A stretch of DNA of 22,528 bases from a virus, in the IMG/VR virus record IMGVR_UViG_3300027714_000136, positions 1 through 22,528 of that record; one strand, written 5' to 3'. Below, one piece after another: positions 6,125 to 22,528 of the stretch. The notes beneath the pieces are model-generated. The model worked only from the letters and a program-made list of their open reading frames with translations. It was not told where the DNA came from and did no database searches. The position numbers and the translations under genes were made by a program. Numbering within the stretch: position 1 is the first letter of the stretch; each line of letters begins with the position of its first letter.

Positions 6125-6146
6125 AATCAAATAAACTAACTAAAAA

Positions 6147-6157
6147 TCTATTATATA
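6147..6157 (+). promoter_or_regulatory. TCTATTATATA intergenic element, copy 1
   Basis: Exact 11-bp copy of an element found in three intergenic gaps of the virion module (also 6887-6897 and 9244-9254). It ends two bases before the ATG of the prohead protease gene. It does not match the TAnnTTTG Bacteroidota -7 box. Its promoter role is inferred mainly from copy 3, which follows a terminator; this copy is so close to the ATG that it could instead affect translation. Confidence 0.35.
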
Positions 6158-6159
6158 CT

Positions 6160-6882
6160 ATGCCTTGCGAAAAATGTGAAAACGGAAAATATAAATGGGG
6201 AAAGACAGGAAGCTGTAAGTATGACTCAGTTGCTGAATGTGAAGCTGACAATAAAGACTATTACGAAGATATGAAAGAAACTAAAATTGTAGAATTAGTA
6301 ATTGCAGACGATAGTCAAGAACTTGCAATAGACGCTATCAGTCTAGTAACGAGTCCTGCAATAGAGCAAGACTTTGTATTCTTTGGTAAAGAAAAGAACA
6401 ACTTAACTTTCGCTAAAGTAGATGAAGAAAAGAGAATGCTAGTTAGTCCTGCTTTGATTCCTAACAAGCAAATCTTTAGACACGACCCAAACACAGACTC
6501 AGATTACTATGTATATTTTAGTCCTGATACAGTTAGGAAAGCATCTGAGCTTTATTTAAAACATAACAATCATCACAAAGCAACATACCAACATCAAGAC
6601 AGAGTTTCAGGCGTTCTAACAGTTGAATCTTGGATTAAGGAAGGAGATAGTGATAAGTCCAAGTTATACGGCTACGACTTACCTAATGGTACTTGGTTCG
6701 TTAAGATGAAGATTGAGAATGACGAGCTTTGGGAAAAGATAAAAGATGGAGAACTTAAAGGTCTTTCAATAGAAGGCTACTTTACAGATAGAATGGAAGC
6801 TATGTCAGAAAAGCAACCAACTAATGAAGAAATACTAGAAGCACTTAATGAAATAATAAAGGAAAACCAAACAGAACAATAA
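6160..6882 (+). CDS. XkdF-like prohead protease with an N-terminal four-cysteine motif
   Basis: This is a 240-residue protein. Residues 1-30 carry four cysteines (Cys3, Cys6, Cys19, Cys27) around KYKWGKTGSC, which looks like a small zinc-ribbon-type unit. From about 42 the sequence fits the XkdF/phage prohead protease group: an IDAISLVTSPAIEQDF strand-turn, a histidine near 145 in YQHQDRVSGVLTVES, and a serine near 202 in LKGLSIEGYF. In HK97-family prohead proteases a histidine and a serine in this kind of setting form the active site; that assignment here is inference. The gene lies directly before the scaffold-like and major capsid genes, as expected for the enzyme that matures the capsid. 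It follows the tape measure gene after a 35-nt gap. Confidence 0.78.
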   Translation: MPCEKCENGKYKWGKTGSCKYDSVAECEADNKDYYEDMKETKIVELVIADDSQELAIDAISLVTSPAIEQDFVFFGKEKNNLTFAKVDEEKRMLVSPALIPNKQIFRHDPNTDSDYYVYFSPDTVRKASELYLKHNNHHKATYQHQDRVSGVLTVESWIKEGDSDKSKLYGYDLPNGTWFVKMKIENDELWEKIKDGELKGLSIEGYFTDRMEAMSEKQPTNEEILEALNEIIKENQTEQ

Positions 6883-6886
6883 CTAT

Positions 6887-6897
6887 TCTATTATATA
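6887..6897 (+). promoter_or_regulatory. TCTATTATATA intergenic element, copy 2
   Basis: Second exact copy of the 11-bp element, in the 35-nt gap before the scaffold-like gene and 20 nt before its ATG. Here it sits in a near-palindrome, TTCTATTATATAACAGAA, centred on TTATATAA with one mismatched pair. That could mean a bound protein dimer rather than, or as well as, a promoter. Confidence 0.38.
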
Positions 6898-6917
6898 ACA
6901 GAACTTAAAACAAAACT

Positions 6918-7571
6918 ATGGATTTAAAAAATCAAATATTAGTAGCACTTGGTCTTGATAAAGGCGAAGATGTAACAATGGCTTATCAAGCAAAGTCAGA
7001 AGACGGAACTATTTTCGTTTCAACAGCTGAAGAATTAGAAGCAGGAGTTGATATTTCTGTTTTAACTGAAGATGGAACGACAATTTTATTACCTGTTGGA
7101 ACTTACAAGACAGATACAGGTGTATCTTTCAGAGTAGAGGAAGAAGGTATCGTTGCTGAAGTAATTGAGTCTGAAACTGAAGAAGAAGTAGTTGAAGAAG
7201 AAATGGAATTAGCTGAAGAAGCTGATGTAGCTGATTGGGCAGGTATGGAAAAGCGAATTGAAAATCTCGAAATAGCGGTCAGTAAGCTAAAAGAAGATAA
7301 AGACGGAGGAGATGATGAGGTTGAAGAAATGGCTGAAGAAGTTGTTGCACCTTCTACTAATCCTAAATCTATTAAGACTACAGAAGTAGTTGAGTTCGCA
7401 GAATTAAAAGCAGAAAACGAAAGACTAAAGACTGAATTAGCAGAATCTCCTGCATCAGCTCCTTTAGATACAAATAAATTTAGTTCAGAAGCTACTAAGG
7501 TTTCTTTATCTAAAAGAGAAATATCAAAAATGACAAAAAGGGAACAATACCTTTATAATTTATATAACTAA
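6918..7571 (+). CDS. Probable capsid scaffold protein
   Basis: This is a 217-residue, strongly acidic protein. Its middle part (about 75-135) is dominated by Glu, Val and Ala. A predicted short coiled coil (MEKRIENLEIAVSKLKEDK) lies at about 110-128, with a second heptad-like stretch at about 159-175. The C-terminus turns basic (about 190-217, SKREISKMTKREQYLYNLYN). An acidic, helical protein with a basic capsid-binding end, lying between the protease and the major capsid gene, is the usual picture of a scaffold. Identification therefore rests on composition and position, not on a recognised family. The A-rich leader before the ATG is shared with the neighbouring genes. Confidence 0.68.
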   Translation: MDLKNQILVALGLDKGEDVTMAYQAKSEDGTIFVSTAEELEAGVDISVLTEDGTTILLPVGTYKTDTGVSFRVEEEGIVAEVIESETEEEVVEEEMELAEEADVADWAGMEKRIENLEIAVSKLKEDKDGGDDEVEEMAEEVVAPSTNPKSIKTTEVVEFAELKAENERLKTELAESPASAPLDTNKFSSEATKVSLSKREISKMTKREQYLYNLYN

Positions 7572-7594
7572 AATAACTAAAAACAAAAAAAATT

Positions 7595-8509
7595 ATGGCT
7601 TTAGCAGTAACATCAAATTACGCAGGGAAGGCAGCTGGTTTCTACATCAGTCAAGCACTTCGTTCAGCAAACTCTATGGAGTTTCTAACAATGATAGAAA
7701 ATATCAAATATAAAAGTAACATTCAAAAAATGTCGGCTGCTTCAATGGTTCAGGACGCAACTTGTGATGTGAATTTAGCAGGAACTCTTACAATGACTGA
7801 GGCTGTATTAGAGCCAAAAAATCTGATGATACAGAGTGATTTATGTAAGCAAACTCTTTTGAGCAGCTTTGAAGCTTTACAAATGAGAGCAGGAGCAGGA
7901 GCACCACCACCACCATCTTTCAATGACTATGTAATTTCTTATATGGGAGAAACTATTGCTAATGCAACAGAAACTTCTATTTGGGGTGGAAATAACGCAA
8001 CAGCAGGAGAATTTACAGGATTTGTAACAGGAGGAGCAGTAGGTAGATTAGTACAAGCAGGTAATACTGTAGTTGATGTAGCTAATGTAGGTGCAGCTTA
8101 CTCAGCAGCAAACATTATTGAGAACTTACAAAACTGTACAGCAGCTATCCCTACACCAGTTTACACAAAAGAAGACCTTTACATCTATATGAGTCCTAAG
8201 TCTTACAGATTATACATTTCAGCTATCTCTACTTTAGGATATGTGAATGCTTACTCTATGAATGGAGACTATGATGCAGTATTTGAAGGAATCAAAATTG
8301 CAGTTTGTAATGGAATGACTAACGATACTTTAGTAGCAGCAGAAAGAAGCAACTTATTCTTCGGAACTGACTTGTTAAGCGACCAAACTTCAAGAATTGA
8401 CCTTTTAGATATGTCTACATTAGACGGTTCAGATAATATTCGTTTATTAGCTCGTTACAGTGGAGGTGTTCAAGTAGGTATTGGAGCTGACGTTGTACTT
8501 GTATCGTAA
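7595..8509 (+). CDS. Major capsid protein
   Basis: This is a 304-residue protein directly after the protease and scaffold-like genes, in the place of the HK97-fold major capsid protein and of typical size after processing. The N-terminal 45 residues are helical. A Gly/Pro-rich loop occurs at about 100-110 (AGAGAPPPPS), followed by an 'IANATETSIWGGNNATAGEFTG' type segment (about 130-150) that recalls the spine-helix and loop region of Bacteroidota phage capsid proteins. The C-terminus ends in short strands (ARYSGGVQVGIGADVVLVS). Codon use is cleaner and richer in preferred codons than in the early genes, as expected for a highly made protein. It is followed by a GC-rich hairpin at 8527-8554. 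Confidence 0.83.
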   Translation: MALAVTSNYAGKAAGFYISQALRSANSMEFLTMIENIKYKSNIQKMSAASMVQDATCDVNLAGTLTMTEAVLEPKNLMIQSDLCKQTLLSSFEALQMRAGAGAPPPPSFNDYVISYMGETIANATETSIWGGNNATAGEFTGFVTGGAVGRLVQAGNTVVDVANVGAAYSAANIIENLQNCTAAIPTPVYTKEDLYIYMSPKSYRLYISAISTLGYVNAYSMNGDYDAVFEGIKIAVCNGMTNDTLVAAERSNLFFGTDLLSDQTSRIDLLDMSTLDGSDNIRLLARYSGGVQVGIGADVVLVS

Positions 8510-8526
8510 TTAAATAAATAATACGG

Positions 8527-8554
8527 AAGGAGGGGGTAAAACCTCTCCTCCCTT
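8527..8554 (+). other. GC-rich RNA hairpin downstream of the capsid gene
   Basis: In the 65-nt gap after the capsid gene, AAGGAGGGGG (8527-8536) can pair with the CT-rich arm at 8542-8554: A27-T54, A28-T53, G29-C52, G30-C51, one bulged C, then A31-T49, G32-C48, G33-C47, a G-T wobble and further G-C pairing, with a TAAAA-type loop. It is unusually GC-rich for this genome. No U tract follows, so it is better read as a 3' stabilising or attenuating structure than as an intrinsic terminator. Confidence 0.6.
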
Positions 8555-8574
8555 AACCTAATAAAAAACACACA

Positions 8575-9162
8575 ATGGCTTGTACAGCACTAACAAAAGG
8601 TAGGGGACTCGACTGTAATAGAATCAGTGGAGGAATAAAATTCGTTTATTTCGGAGTTTACGACCAATTTACAGCACCAATAGAAACAACAGGACTTCCT
8701 GTTACAGCAGGAGAAGTTACTGACTTAGAAATGGGTTCAAATGACTTATACAGATACACAATGCCTTTAGGTGTTGCTAGTCTTACAGATACAATCGTGG
8801 GTTCGAGAGAAAATGGCAGTATTTACTATACGCCTTCTTTGAGTGTAATTCTTAACAGACTTACAAAAGAAGACCAAAACCAAATCAAACTATTAGGAGC
8901 AACTAAACTTGTATGCTTTGCTCAATTAAACGCAACTTTACCTTCAGGAACAGATGTTATTGTTGCTTTAGGAGTTACTAATGGAATGGAACTTAATGCA
9001 GGAACTATGGACTCAGGTGCAGCTTGGGGAGATAGAGGAGGATATACTCTTACTTTTGACGGAATGGAGGCTTCTCCTTTTCCAATGGTAGCAGACTATC
9101 CAATAGCAACAGGACCTTTCACAAATGCAGGGTTTAATTTTGGTTCAATAGTTACATCTTAA
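8575..9162 (+). CDS. Virion protein, possible tail tube protein
   Basis: This is a 195-residue protein with a beta-rich, Gly/Thr-rich composition. Its N-terminus reads ACTALTKGRGLDCNRISGG and then KFVYFGVYD; similar starts are seen in structural proteins of Bacteroidota phages. The middle part contains alternating strands and an RLTKEDQNQIKLLG helix (about 102-116). A YTLTFDGMEASPFP segment lies near 155-170. It lies just after the major capsid gene and is followed by a terminator, so it is probably abundant in the virion. A tail-tube role is an inference from length, beta content and the 'GYTLT..G.E..P' pattern; a capsid-associated role cannot be excluded. Confidence 0.65.
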   Translation: MACTALTKGRGLDCNRISGGIKFVYFGVYDQFTAPIETTGLPVTAGEVTDLEMGSNDLYRYTMPLGVASLTDTIVGSRENGSIYYTPSLSVILNRLTKEDQNQIKLLGATKLVCFAQLNATLPSGTDVIVALGVTNGMELNAGTMDSGAAWGDRGGYTLTFDGMEASPFPMVADYPIATGPFTNAGFNFGSIVTS

Positions 9163-9189
9163 ATTTCTTATCTGTTTTCTTATAATCTT

Positions 9190-9224
9190 AAAAGGGTAGC
9201 TTAATTGTTACCCTTTTTCTTTTC
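9190..9224 (+). terminator. Intrinsic transcription terminator
   Basis: AAAGGGTA (9191-9198) pairs perfectly with TACCCTTT (9209-9216); the stem can be extended by A9190-T9217. The loop is 10 nt and a T-rich run, TTTTTCTTTT, follows from 9214. This is the clearest intrinsic terminator in the window. It ends the transcript covering the capsid gene and the 195-residue protein. The next gene starts 37 nt further on. Confidence 0.8.
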
Positions 9225-9243
9225 CAAATAAAAACTGACTTTT

Positions 9244-9254
9244 TCTATTATATA
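9244..9254 (+). promoter_or_regulatory. TCTATTATATA intergenic element, copy 3
   Basis: Third exact copy of the 11-bp element, between the terminator at 9190-9224 and the ATG at 9261. The surrounding bases make an imperfect palindrome, TCTATTATATAGTAGA. Because transcription should largely stop just upstream, a promoter is expected here, and this is the only recurring element in the gap. No TAnnTTTG box was seen. Confidence 0.45.
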
Positions 9255-9260
9255 GTAGAT

Positions 9261-9749
9261 ATGATACAAGCCTACACAGAATCAAACTTTAAAGCATACT
9301 TATCTACGGAAGATAATCGTATTGATACATCTGTACTTAAAAGAAATATAAGGTTCTTAGTTAAACTTATTAATGATATGGACGGAAGTATAGACTACGT
9401 ATATCCTGCTGAAGTTATCAATAATAGATTTACTGAAATGACTTTCACTTATGAGGCTGATGCTCTTACAGTTAATATGTTTGATGGAGAAGTTCATTTA
9501 TTACCTTCAGGATATTGGAAGTATGAGGTTTATGAAGTAAGTTGGATAGGAACAGCAAGTCTTAACGCAGAACAAGCACCATCAACAGAAACAGAAGTTA
9601 TTACTCCTATAGGAGATAATATAGGAGTAGTTCAAGGCTTAGTAACAAAAGGAAAGCTATATTTAGCAGAAAAAGATGGAACAGAACAAGTACAATACAC
9701 ACAACATCCTGAACCTTCAGGAACTAACTATATATATTACGGACAATAA
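9261..9749 (+). CDS. Virion-module protein of unknown function
   Basis: This is a 162-residue protein, first gene after the terminator. The N-terminal half (about 1-105) is mixed alpha/beta and acidic, including NIRFLVKLINDMDGSIDYVY and a TEMTFTYEADALTVNMFDGE stretch. A low-complexity linker of Ala, Thr, Glu and Pro lies at about 108-118, and a short C-terminal part is rich in Gln, Tyr and Pro (about 140-162). No membrane segment, signal peptide or catalytic motif was found. The two-part layout is common for minor virion or fibre-attachment proteins, and the position between the capsid and adhesin genes supports a structural role, but no family was recognised. Confidence 0.65.
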   Translation: MIQAYTESNFKAYLSTEDNRIDTSVLKRNIRFLVKLINDMDGSIDYVYPAEVINNRFTEMTFTYEADALTVNMFDGEVHLLPSGYWKYEVYEVSWIGTASLNAEQAPSTETEVITPIGDNIGVVQGLVTKGKLYLAEKDGTEQVQYTQHPEPSGTNYIYYGQ

Positions 9750-17045: not shown

Positions 17046-17079
17046 TTGTTAATAACTTTGTAAATAAACTTGTTAATAA
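17046..17079 (+). repeat. Direct repeat TTGTTAATAA, possible operator
   Basis: TTGTTAATAA occurs at 17046-17055 and again at 17070-17079, a 24-bp period. The first copy contains the odd palindrome GTTAATAAC (17048-17056); the second ends in T, GTTAATAAT. Both lie just upstream of the early promoter, in the only sizeable noncoding gap (16953-17135). Binding by a phage or host regulator is inferred. Confidence 0.5.
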
Positions 17080-17110
17080 TTGTGTGAGTAACTTTAAAGG
17101 TGTACTTTTG
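17080..17110 (+). promoter_or_regulatory. Bacteroidota-type early promoter
   Basis: TTG (17080-17082), a 20-nt spacer, then TACTTTTG (17103-17110) match the Bacteroidota primary sigma consensus TTG-N(about 19-21)-TAnnTTTG. Transcription would start at about 17117, giving a leader of about 20 nt before the ATG at 17136. A second -7-like box, TAACTTTG at 17053-17060, has no good -33 partner. Confidence 0.7.
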
Positions 17111-18578: not shown

Positions 18579-18598
18579 TTTAACCGAGAAAAGACCTA

Positions 18599-18617
18599 CT
18601 CACTAATCATAGGCGAA
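18599..18617 (+). repeat. CTCACTAATCATAGGCGAA element, copy 1
   Basis: This 19-bp sequence is in the 46-nt gap between the ERF and DUF3127 genes. It matches the sequence at 22506-22523 except for one inserted base. ATATATA separates it from the ATG at 18625. The two copies share nothing around them, so the element itself is probably under selection. Confidence 0.6.
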
Positions 18618-20438: not shown

Positions 20439-20566
20439 AGAAAGAAAAATTGTACGACCCTGTAAAAACAGGAAGTTTTAAAATGATGTTTGGATTCCCA
20501 CAGCCAAGTACATACCGACCTAACAATTGGGTATCAATTAGAAAGCCTAAAGAAGAAAAGAAATGA
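20435..20566 (+). CDS. 43-residue protein in the early operon
   Basis: A short frame coupled on both sides: its ATG overlaps the previous TGA and its own TGA overlaps the next ATG (ATGA twice). Bridging two genes this exactly is good evidence that it is translated. The protein is basic, starting MKKEKLYDPVKTGSFKMMFG and ending in a Lys/Glu-rich stretch, with a Pro-rich turn in between. No motif or membrane helix was seen. Function unknown; small basic early proteins may bind DNA or host factors. Confidence 0.58.
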   Translation: MKKEKLYDPVKTGSFKMMFGFPQPSTYRPNNWVSIRKPKEEKK

Positions 20567-22129: not shown

Positions 22130-22137
22130 TATCTTTG
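22130..22137 (+). promoter_or_regulatory. Possible -7 promoter box (TATCTTTG)
   Basis: TATCTTTG matches the Bacteroidota -7 consensus TAnnTTTG, in the 21-nt gap between the NinG gene and the next gene. The -33 side is weak: the nearest TTG at 22113-22115 leaves only 14 nt spacing. With the ATG at 22142, a transcript from here would be nearly leaderless. Confidence 0.3.
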
Positions 22138-22141
22138 GCGT

Positions 22142-22498
22142 ATGATAGAACTAATCTACGCAAATAATGAACATCGAGTAATCATTGAAACTTATATTAC
22201 AATGTGCAAAGAGTTCGCAAAAGAAGTCAGCACAAAAAGTAGATACAATAATTATTTAGAAGTTGTAGAAATTATTTTGGAGTATTCAAATCATTATGGA
22301 GAAGGACAGAGGGAGAATAATTTTTGGGATTGGATGCTGATTATACCTATAAACTTAGCAGTAGCAACTAATGGATTCTTTGCAGGAGTAGAAACAAGAA
22401 GTAATGCAGCAGTAGTAAGGGCTTACAGAGTAGTTCTTGATGAACTGGTACAAGACACAGTTAATAAGATAGATAGTATTGAAACGATAAAAGAGTAA
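22142..22498 (+). CDS. Early protein of unknown function
   Basis: This is a 118-residue, mainly helical protein with an acidic N-terminal half (EVVEIILEYSNHYGEG around 40-55), a moderately hydrophobic segment (DWMLIIPINLAVATNGFFAG, about 63-82) and a charged C-terminal helix (AAVVRAYRVVLDELVQDTVN). The hydrophobic segment is too short and polar for a confident membrane call. No motif or family was recognised. It follows NinG and is followed by the second copy of the repeated element, suggesting that the operon continues beyond the window. Confidence 0.6.
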   Translation: MIELIYANNEHRVIIETYITMCKEFAKEVSTKSRYNNYLEVVEIILEYSNHYGEGQRENNFWDWMLIIPINLAVATNGFFAGVETRSNAAVVRAYRVVLDELVQDTVNKIDSIETIKE

Positions 22499-22505
22499 AG
22501 CCCCG

Positions 22506-22523
22506 CTCACTAATATAGGCGAA
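22506..22523 (+). repeat. CTCACTAATATAGGCGAA element, copy 2
   Basis: This 18-bp sequence lies 7 nt after the last stop codon and matches the 19-bp copy at 18599-18617 apart from one missing base. The first copy lies 7 nt before a start codon. The second probably precedes a gene whose start is just beyond the window. Confidence 0.6.
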
Positions 22524-22528
22524 TAGAT

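Follow-up and report, generated by a model that had tools for sequence, protein, structure and literature searches.

What an 11-bp sequence repeated in three gaps of a phage virion module does, and which protein reads it, is the question raised by the 22,528-base stretch of viral DNA analysed here (the window). The question has a wider setting, as late gene control in phages of Bacteroidota has hardly been described and their promoters differ from the textbook type. A preliminary description had proposed a phage-specific late promoter, with a dimeric activator as the alternative.

Repeated core in the virion module

The window contains exactly three copies of the sequence TCTATTATATA, all on the plus strand (Table 1). 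The expected count is 0.05, and none of 100 dinucleotide shuffles reached three copies. The repeat is thus borne out, as is its placement: the three gaps each precede a virion gene, encoding a protease, a putative scaffold protein and a protein without assigned role, respectively. The terminator noted ahead of the third copy is genuine. Had the motif been equally frequent inside genes, the promoter reading would have suffered; the search located matches upstream of late genes and not inside genes.

A misfit to the host box had also been noted, and it holds. On the gene strand, the three gaps contain neither a TAnnTTTG nor a TTTG box, and the absence of TAnnTTTG argues against a host primary promoter at these places. 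A scan for the sigma-70 consensus gave 6 matches in comparison with 10.0 in shuffles, none of them at the three sites. The T4-type late core TATAAATA is absent from the three gaps on inspection of the sequence. An Rfam search of the window returned no match.

The core is half of a longer element. A second box, CAAAYA, overlooked in the preliminary description, starts exactly 19 bases upstream of each core, and TCTATTATATA forms the -10 half of CAAAYA-N13-TCTATTATATA with a spacing fixed in all three copies. Among 109 distinct sites of related phages, 104 have this box at the same offset of -19, while the flanks vary. Scoring with a 36-bp matrix gave three strong matches in the window, the sites P1, P3 and P2 in descending order (Table 1). 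The next-best window score was -1.1, and the maximum over 60 simulated windows was 7.2 bits.

Table 1. Features of the putative late promoter units and of the predicted sigma operon; positions refer to the window.
Feature	Position	Strand	Evidence and remarks
P1 -33 box CAAATA	6128..6133	+	alignment and logo of relatives' sites
P1 -10 core TCTATTATATA	6147..6157	+	37.8 bits; predicted +1 at 6160, the A of the protease ATG
Head maturation protease, XkdF-like, Peptidase_S78_2	6160..6882	+	Pfam PF14550 6.7e-19, PHROGs; first gene after P1
P2 -33 box CAAACA	6868..6873	+	within 3' end of protease gene; site alignment
P2 -10 core TCTATTATATA	6887..6897	+	35.0 bits; predicted +1 at 6900, 18-nt leader
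Putative scaffold gene	6918..7571	+	first gene after P2; between protease and capsid genes
Major capsid protein	7595..8509	+	phrog_11320, phrog_1623; in P2 unit
G+C-rich hairpin, no T tail	8525..8552	+	-17.4 kcal/mol, z -2.7; after capsid gene
Intrinsic terminator, end of P2 unit	9190..9217	+	11-pair stem, T tail, z-score -5.7
P3 -33 box CAAATA	9225..9230	+	site alignment, logo
P3 -10 core TCTATTATATA	9244..9254	+	37.6 bits; predicted +1 at 9257, 4-nt leader
Virion-module gene, no assigned role	9261..9749	+	first gene after P3; same place in 67 relatives
Host-type -7 box TATCTTTG	22130..22137	+	TAnnTTTG kept in 35/37 relatives
Small gene preceding the sigma gene in most relatives	22142..22498	+	window ends 30 nt later

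Predicted start sites and transcription units

An A at index 13 is present in 90% of the aligned sites and is the likely transcription start. The predicted start lies 2-3 nt past the core, a little closer than the earlier guess of 5-10 nt. The distance from the start of the core to the ATG ranges from 13 to 44, and the minimum of 13 is found in 45 of the 109 sites. With TATTAT taken as the -10 hexamer, transcription would begin at the first base of the ATG when the distance is 13. By the same step, a leaderless mRNA is predicted for P1, and short leaders for P2 and P3. Leaderless starts would be unusual, since only about 5.5% of the mRNAs with a mapped promoter in F. psychrophilum are reported to lack a leader (PMC9723704), and in F. 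johnsoniae 87% of the leaders are longer than 10 nt (PMC6847099).

The putative scaffold gene has a weak phrog_24921 match and is conserved in 80 relatives. The major capsid gene, with 593 confirmed homologous stretches in IMG/VR, has no promoter site of its own and would be served by the scaffold promoter P2. The hairpin behind it may stabilise or protect the capsid mRNA, attenuate transcription, or set the ratio of capsid to downstream gene products. The portal gene and other late genes follow downstream of the first gene after P3.

Conservation in related phages

Relatives were retrieved via the capsid protein, yielding 80 phages of 65-98% identity. Relatives with capsid identities as low as 65% retain the element in the corresponding gaps, with 135 cores on the gene strand and 3 on the opposite strand. 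Longer relatives have two extra sites. One is on the terminase side, ahead of the small terminase gene or, in some relatives, of a ParB-like gene; the other precedes an additional late gene. The fifth site has a weaker -33 box (AAACTA). No promoter sites were found at the early genes of the longer relatives. Judged by this distribution, the element marks the putative late regulon of a large group of uncultured marine phages.

Strong support for a phage-specific late promoter comes from the bipartite geometry, the restriction to late-gene gaps, the orientation along the genes, the conservation, the non-host box and a covarying phage ECF-like sigma factor.

A phage-encoded ECF-like sigma factor in relatives

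In one relative (G001), a gene directly after the homologue of the last gene in Table 1, hereafter gene 22142, encodes a sigma-like protein of 193 residues. It matches TIGR02937 (sigma70-ECF) with 2.3e-7, below the NCBIfam curated cut-off, and phrog_1740 (phage RNA polymerase sigma factor) with 4.4e-5. The AlphaFold (AF2) model has a pLDDT of 72.5 and a pTM of only 0.46. A fold search with this model in the PDB placed ECF sigmas at the top (6dv9_F, SigL, 7e-4), while a PDB sequence search with the sigma alignment gave no match. The C-terminal domain of the model compares with SigE region 4 on -35 DNA (2h27) at a TM of 0.80 and an rmsd of 1.7. In sequence and predicted fold, the protein resembles ECF sigmas and would comprise sigma2 and sigma4 only.

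A sigma match at the locus is present in 79 of 80 relatives of gene 22142 (two are cut by the contig end), and sigma gene and motif co-occur across relatives. The sigma gene follows the gene-22142 homologue directly or behind a small inserted gene. In L201, the locus inspected for it, no anti-sigma gene was recognised beside the sigma gene. A scan of about 85,000 species genomes, one per species, detected the sigma on two contigs only, of 29 and 36 kb, in metagenome bins labelled archaeon and alphaproteobacterium and not flavobacteria. These contigs look like mis-binned phage. Within the two bins, the motif was found on the sigma-bearing contig only, plus two more contigs in one bin. A tblastn search of isolate phages with the sigma gave no match.

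The window stops just short of the position of the relatives' sigma gene, and its presence in this exact phage is inferred from the relatives. It may have been lost or relocated here, as the window contig ends and the near twin (L298/L512) continues after the gene-22142 homologue with an inserted cargo gene, behind which the contig ends. The cargo gene (MKMKIEYLAPYLPYDLQWK..., L298:5389-5490) is also found on about 20 further contigs, behind a repeat of roughly AAARNCCYNCTCACTAATNATAGGCGAA. Its first 34 residues are 100% identical across otherwise diverged phages, which suggests a recently spread mobile cassette and may be the reason why assemblies break there. The repeat of the type AAARNCCYNCTCACTAATNATAGGCGAA is located at 18587-18615 and 22499-22526 in the window, just upstream of early-region or cargo genes. 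It has 24 matches in the loci examined, some on the same contig, and L324, L326 and L361 have three consecutive copies; neither a stable fold nor an Rfam match was obtained for it. In L300, L301, L303, L307 and L335, inserted genes between the gene-22142 homologue and the sigma gene mark one hot spot, and some of these inserts resemble DNA methyltransferases by eye.

Covariation of promoter and sigma factor

The sites of one clade read TACATTATATA instead of TCTATTATATA. They changed together, with the -33 box and the spacing kept; two sites in one genome of this group read TATATTATATA. The comparison set six sigma sequences from the TACATTATATA (TACATT) genomes against 100 from TCTATT phages. 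Among the 50 sigma positions that are at least 99% conserved in the 100 TCTATT phages, five change in the TACATT clade, four of them within residues 70-79. None of the six sigmas of the clade retains R78, which is N in five and Y in one. R78 and the TCTATT sites both persist in L379/L388, where the sigma shares only about 51% identity with the reference. The sigma4 recognition helix ISRNSLFTTIDKVR is unchanged in the TACATT clade, save one T to S in some sequences, in line with the unchanged CAAAYA box.

Residues 76-79 of the sigma model make up the loop that joins the final two helices of sigma2. From the helix order, not from a structural superposition, they would correspond to loop L3 of ECF sigmas. 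This loop is a modular determinant of -10 specificity, and a swap transfers the specificity, as stated in the passage of PMC6372665 on the work of Campagne et al. The putative -10-reading loop thus changed with the -10 motif, and neither the putative -35-reading helix nor the -33 box changed with it. All TACATT genomes belong to a single clade (support 0.95) and hence count as a single evolutionary event, and the loop was singled out post hoc. Over all relatives, cores are identical within the genome in 43 genomes, with 27.2 expected and a maximum of 37 in 5000 shuffles; this signal is real but diluted by variants at single sites, and the genomes are related, hence the test yields no clean probability.

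Alternative explanations

A late promoter may be read by another protein of phage or host, such as an activator or a host ECF sigma, with the sigma-like gene acting elsewhere. Flavobacteria own several ECF sigmas, seven in the case of F. psychrophilum (PMC9723704), and phage winged-helix proteins are encoded in the early region (window position 20563). Such a reader is nevertheless unlikely in view of the co-occurrence of sigma and motif and of the -10 loop, which differs in the TACATT clade. The two metagenome-assembled genomes argue in the same direction: the motif is confined to few contigs including the sigma-bearing one and is not spread genome-wide, though these bins are not labelled flavobacteria. 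The position of the repeats at gene boundaries would also suit recombination or module-boundary sequences, or translation signals at the RNA level, the latter in a phylum without Shine-Dalgarno sites that uses A-rich upstream sequence (PMC6847099). A variable distance to the ATG combined with a fixed internal spacing is hard to reconcile with these functions, as are the lack of copies before internal late genes, e.g. the capsid gene, the terminator directly preceding P3 and the correlation of the motif change with the sigma change. Boundary or translation signals are therefore very improbable.

The dimeric activator, or a repressor of the same type, drew on near-palindromy. In copies 2 and 3, 14 of 16 positions, counted by eye, do agree with the reverse complement, and the site of one relative is a perfect palindrome. 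The symmetry is not kept in the group: relatives' sites match at 6 to 16 of 16 positions, mostly 10-14, and the right half of the palindrome is low in information in the site logo, one A excepted. The strand bias of the cores and their fixed distance to the asymmetric CAAAYA box indicate a directional element. A dimer-binding site is hardly credible, and the activator proposal was not sustained.

Proposed cascade

The favoured reading, a late promoter served by the phage sigma, would extend to a cascade of two steps. The host primary sigma would transcribe the phage sigma operon from a TAnnTTTG promoter. Such a box is located directly before gene 22142, the first gene of the relatives' sigma operon. 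Counting its G as -5 (PMC6847099) places the start on the A of the gene-22142 ATG. No clear -33 TTTG accompanies this box, for which reason the promoter of the sigma operon remains a prediction. The gap that leads into the early region contains two more host-type TAnnTTTG boxes, at 17053-17060 and 17103-17110, both likely early promoters; the latter has a TTG near -33.

The phage ECF-like sigma, of about 190 residues with sigma2 and sigma4, would then redirect the host RNA polymerase to the late sites. These would consist of the -33 box CAAAYA, a 13-bp spacer and the extended -10 element TCTATTATATA, with a start at the A three bases past the core. In the commonest layout, the start would coincide with the A of the ATG and give a leaderless late mRNA. 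The units driven by the sigma would comprise protease, scaffold-capsid, neck/portal, terminase and tail genes. Transcription, start site, leaderlessness and binding by the phage sigma are all inferred. The host is probably a marine flavobacterium, as suggested by a distant cultured relative and the host-type boxes. The probability that the repeats are late promoters of a lytic, probably flavobacterial phage, operating in a two-step cascade from host sigma to phage ECF sigma, is estimated at roughly 0.87. The broader picture, a widespread and hitherto undescribed group of marine flavobacterial phages with an ECF cascade, largely leaderless late mRNAs and a loop and promoter set that shifted together, is considered probable.

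If true, the group would illustrate how, in nature, a sigma factor and its regulon can shift specificity in step. It poses a testable question, namely how a sigma alters its promoter sequence when several promoters must follow. Sequence alone yields a predicted late regulon for hundreds of uncultured marine phages, and with it a predictable infection timetable. The pair of promoter and sigma offers a portable, host-independent tool for flavobacteria.

Comparison with known systems

A phage sigma with its late promoter is of a known kind from other phages. New elements are an ECF-type sigma in a flavobacterial setting, starts that are probably leaderless, and a correlated shift of promoter and sigma. 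In the literature searched, with subscription journals largely outside, no such system was described in flavobacterial phages.

The cultured phage P12024S of Nonlabens (Persicivirga), a host of the Flavobacteriaceae, has a protein annotated 'Sigma-70 region 2' (gp33) encoded upstream of the terminase gene. It was found by annotation and matches TIGR02937 with 5.1e-7 (ECF families). The BLAST match to the sigma of the window group is only 0.03; the link is based on position, sigma-family matches and promoter architecture, not on a direct BLAST match. The late genes of P12024S are preceded by AAAACAAA-N-TTTCCGTTAATATAnnATG (AAAACAAA..CGTTAATATAnnATG sites) on one strand. Five sites show the full pattern and a sixth has a weaker upstream box, while a simulation yielded 0.025 expected full matches. 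These sites look like a classical ECF promoter with AAC and CGT boxes, and the CGT box is also found in the F. psychrophilum motif SM6 (PMC9723704). Compared with this AAC-type -35 and CGT-type -10, the -10 core TCTATTATATA of the window has drifted from CGT. P12024S and P12024L (genus Inhavirus) resemble the window group in an analogous bipartite late promoter and in the same two-base gap to the ATG. They differ in a -10 that reads CGTTAATATA, and their capsid and portal proteins are 25% and 31% identical, respectively.

ECF (group 4) sigmas resemble the relatives' sigma in having two domains and about 190 residues. The loop-linked change of the -10 in the TACATT clade is likewise of the kind treated in that passage of PMC6372665. 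A difference is the carriage by lytic phages, and an adjacent anti-sigma gene was not seen in L201.

In the case of T4 and SPO1, the host RNA polymerase is likewise steered by a sigma-family protein of the phage to late promoters that are short and phage-specific. T4 late promoters are read by gp55, and the middle and late promoters of SPO1 by gp28 and gp33/34, respectively. These sigmas are not of the ECF type, and T4 requires a sliding clamp. The phages studied here differ by -33 and -10 boxes, many apparently leaderless starts and a probable flavobacterial host. With the primary promoter of Bacteroidota (TTTG / TAnnTTTG) the system shares the host machinery, and a box of this type precedes the phage sigma operon.
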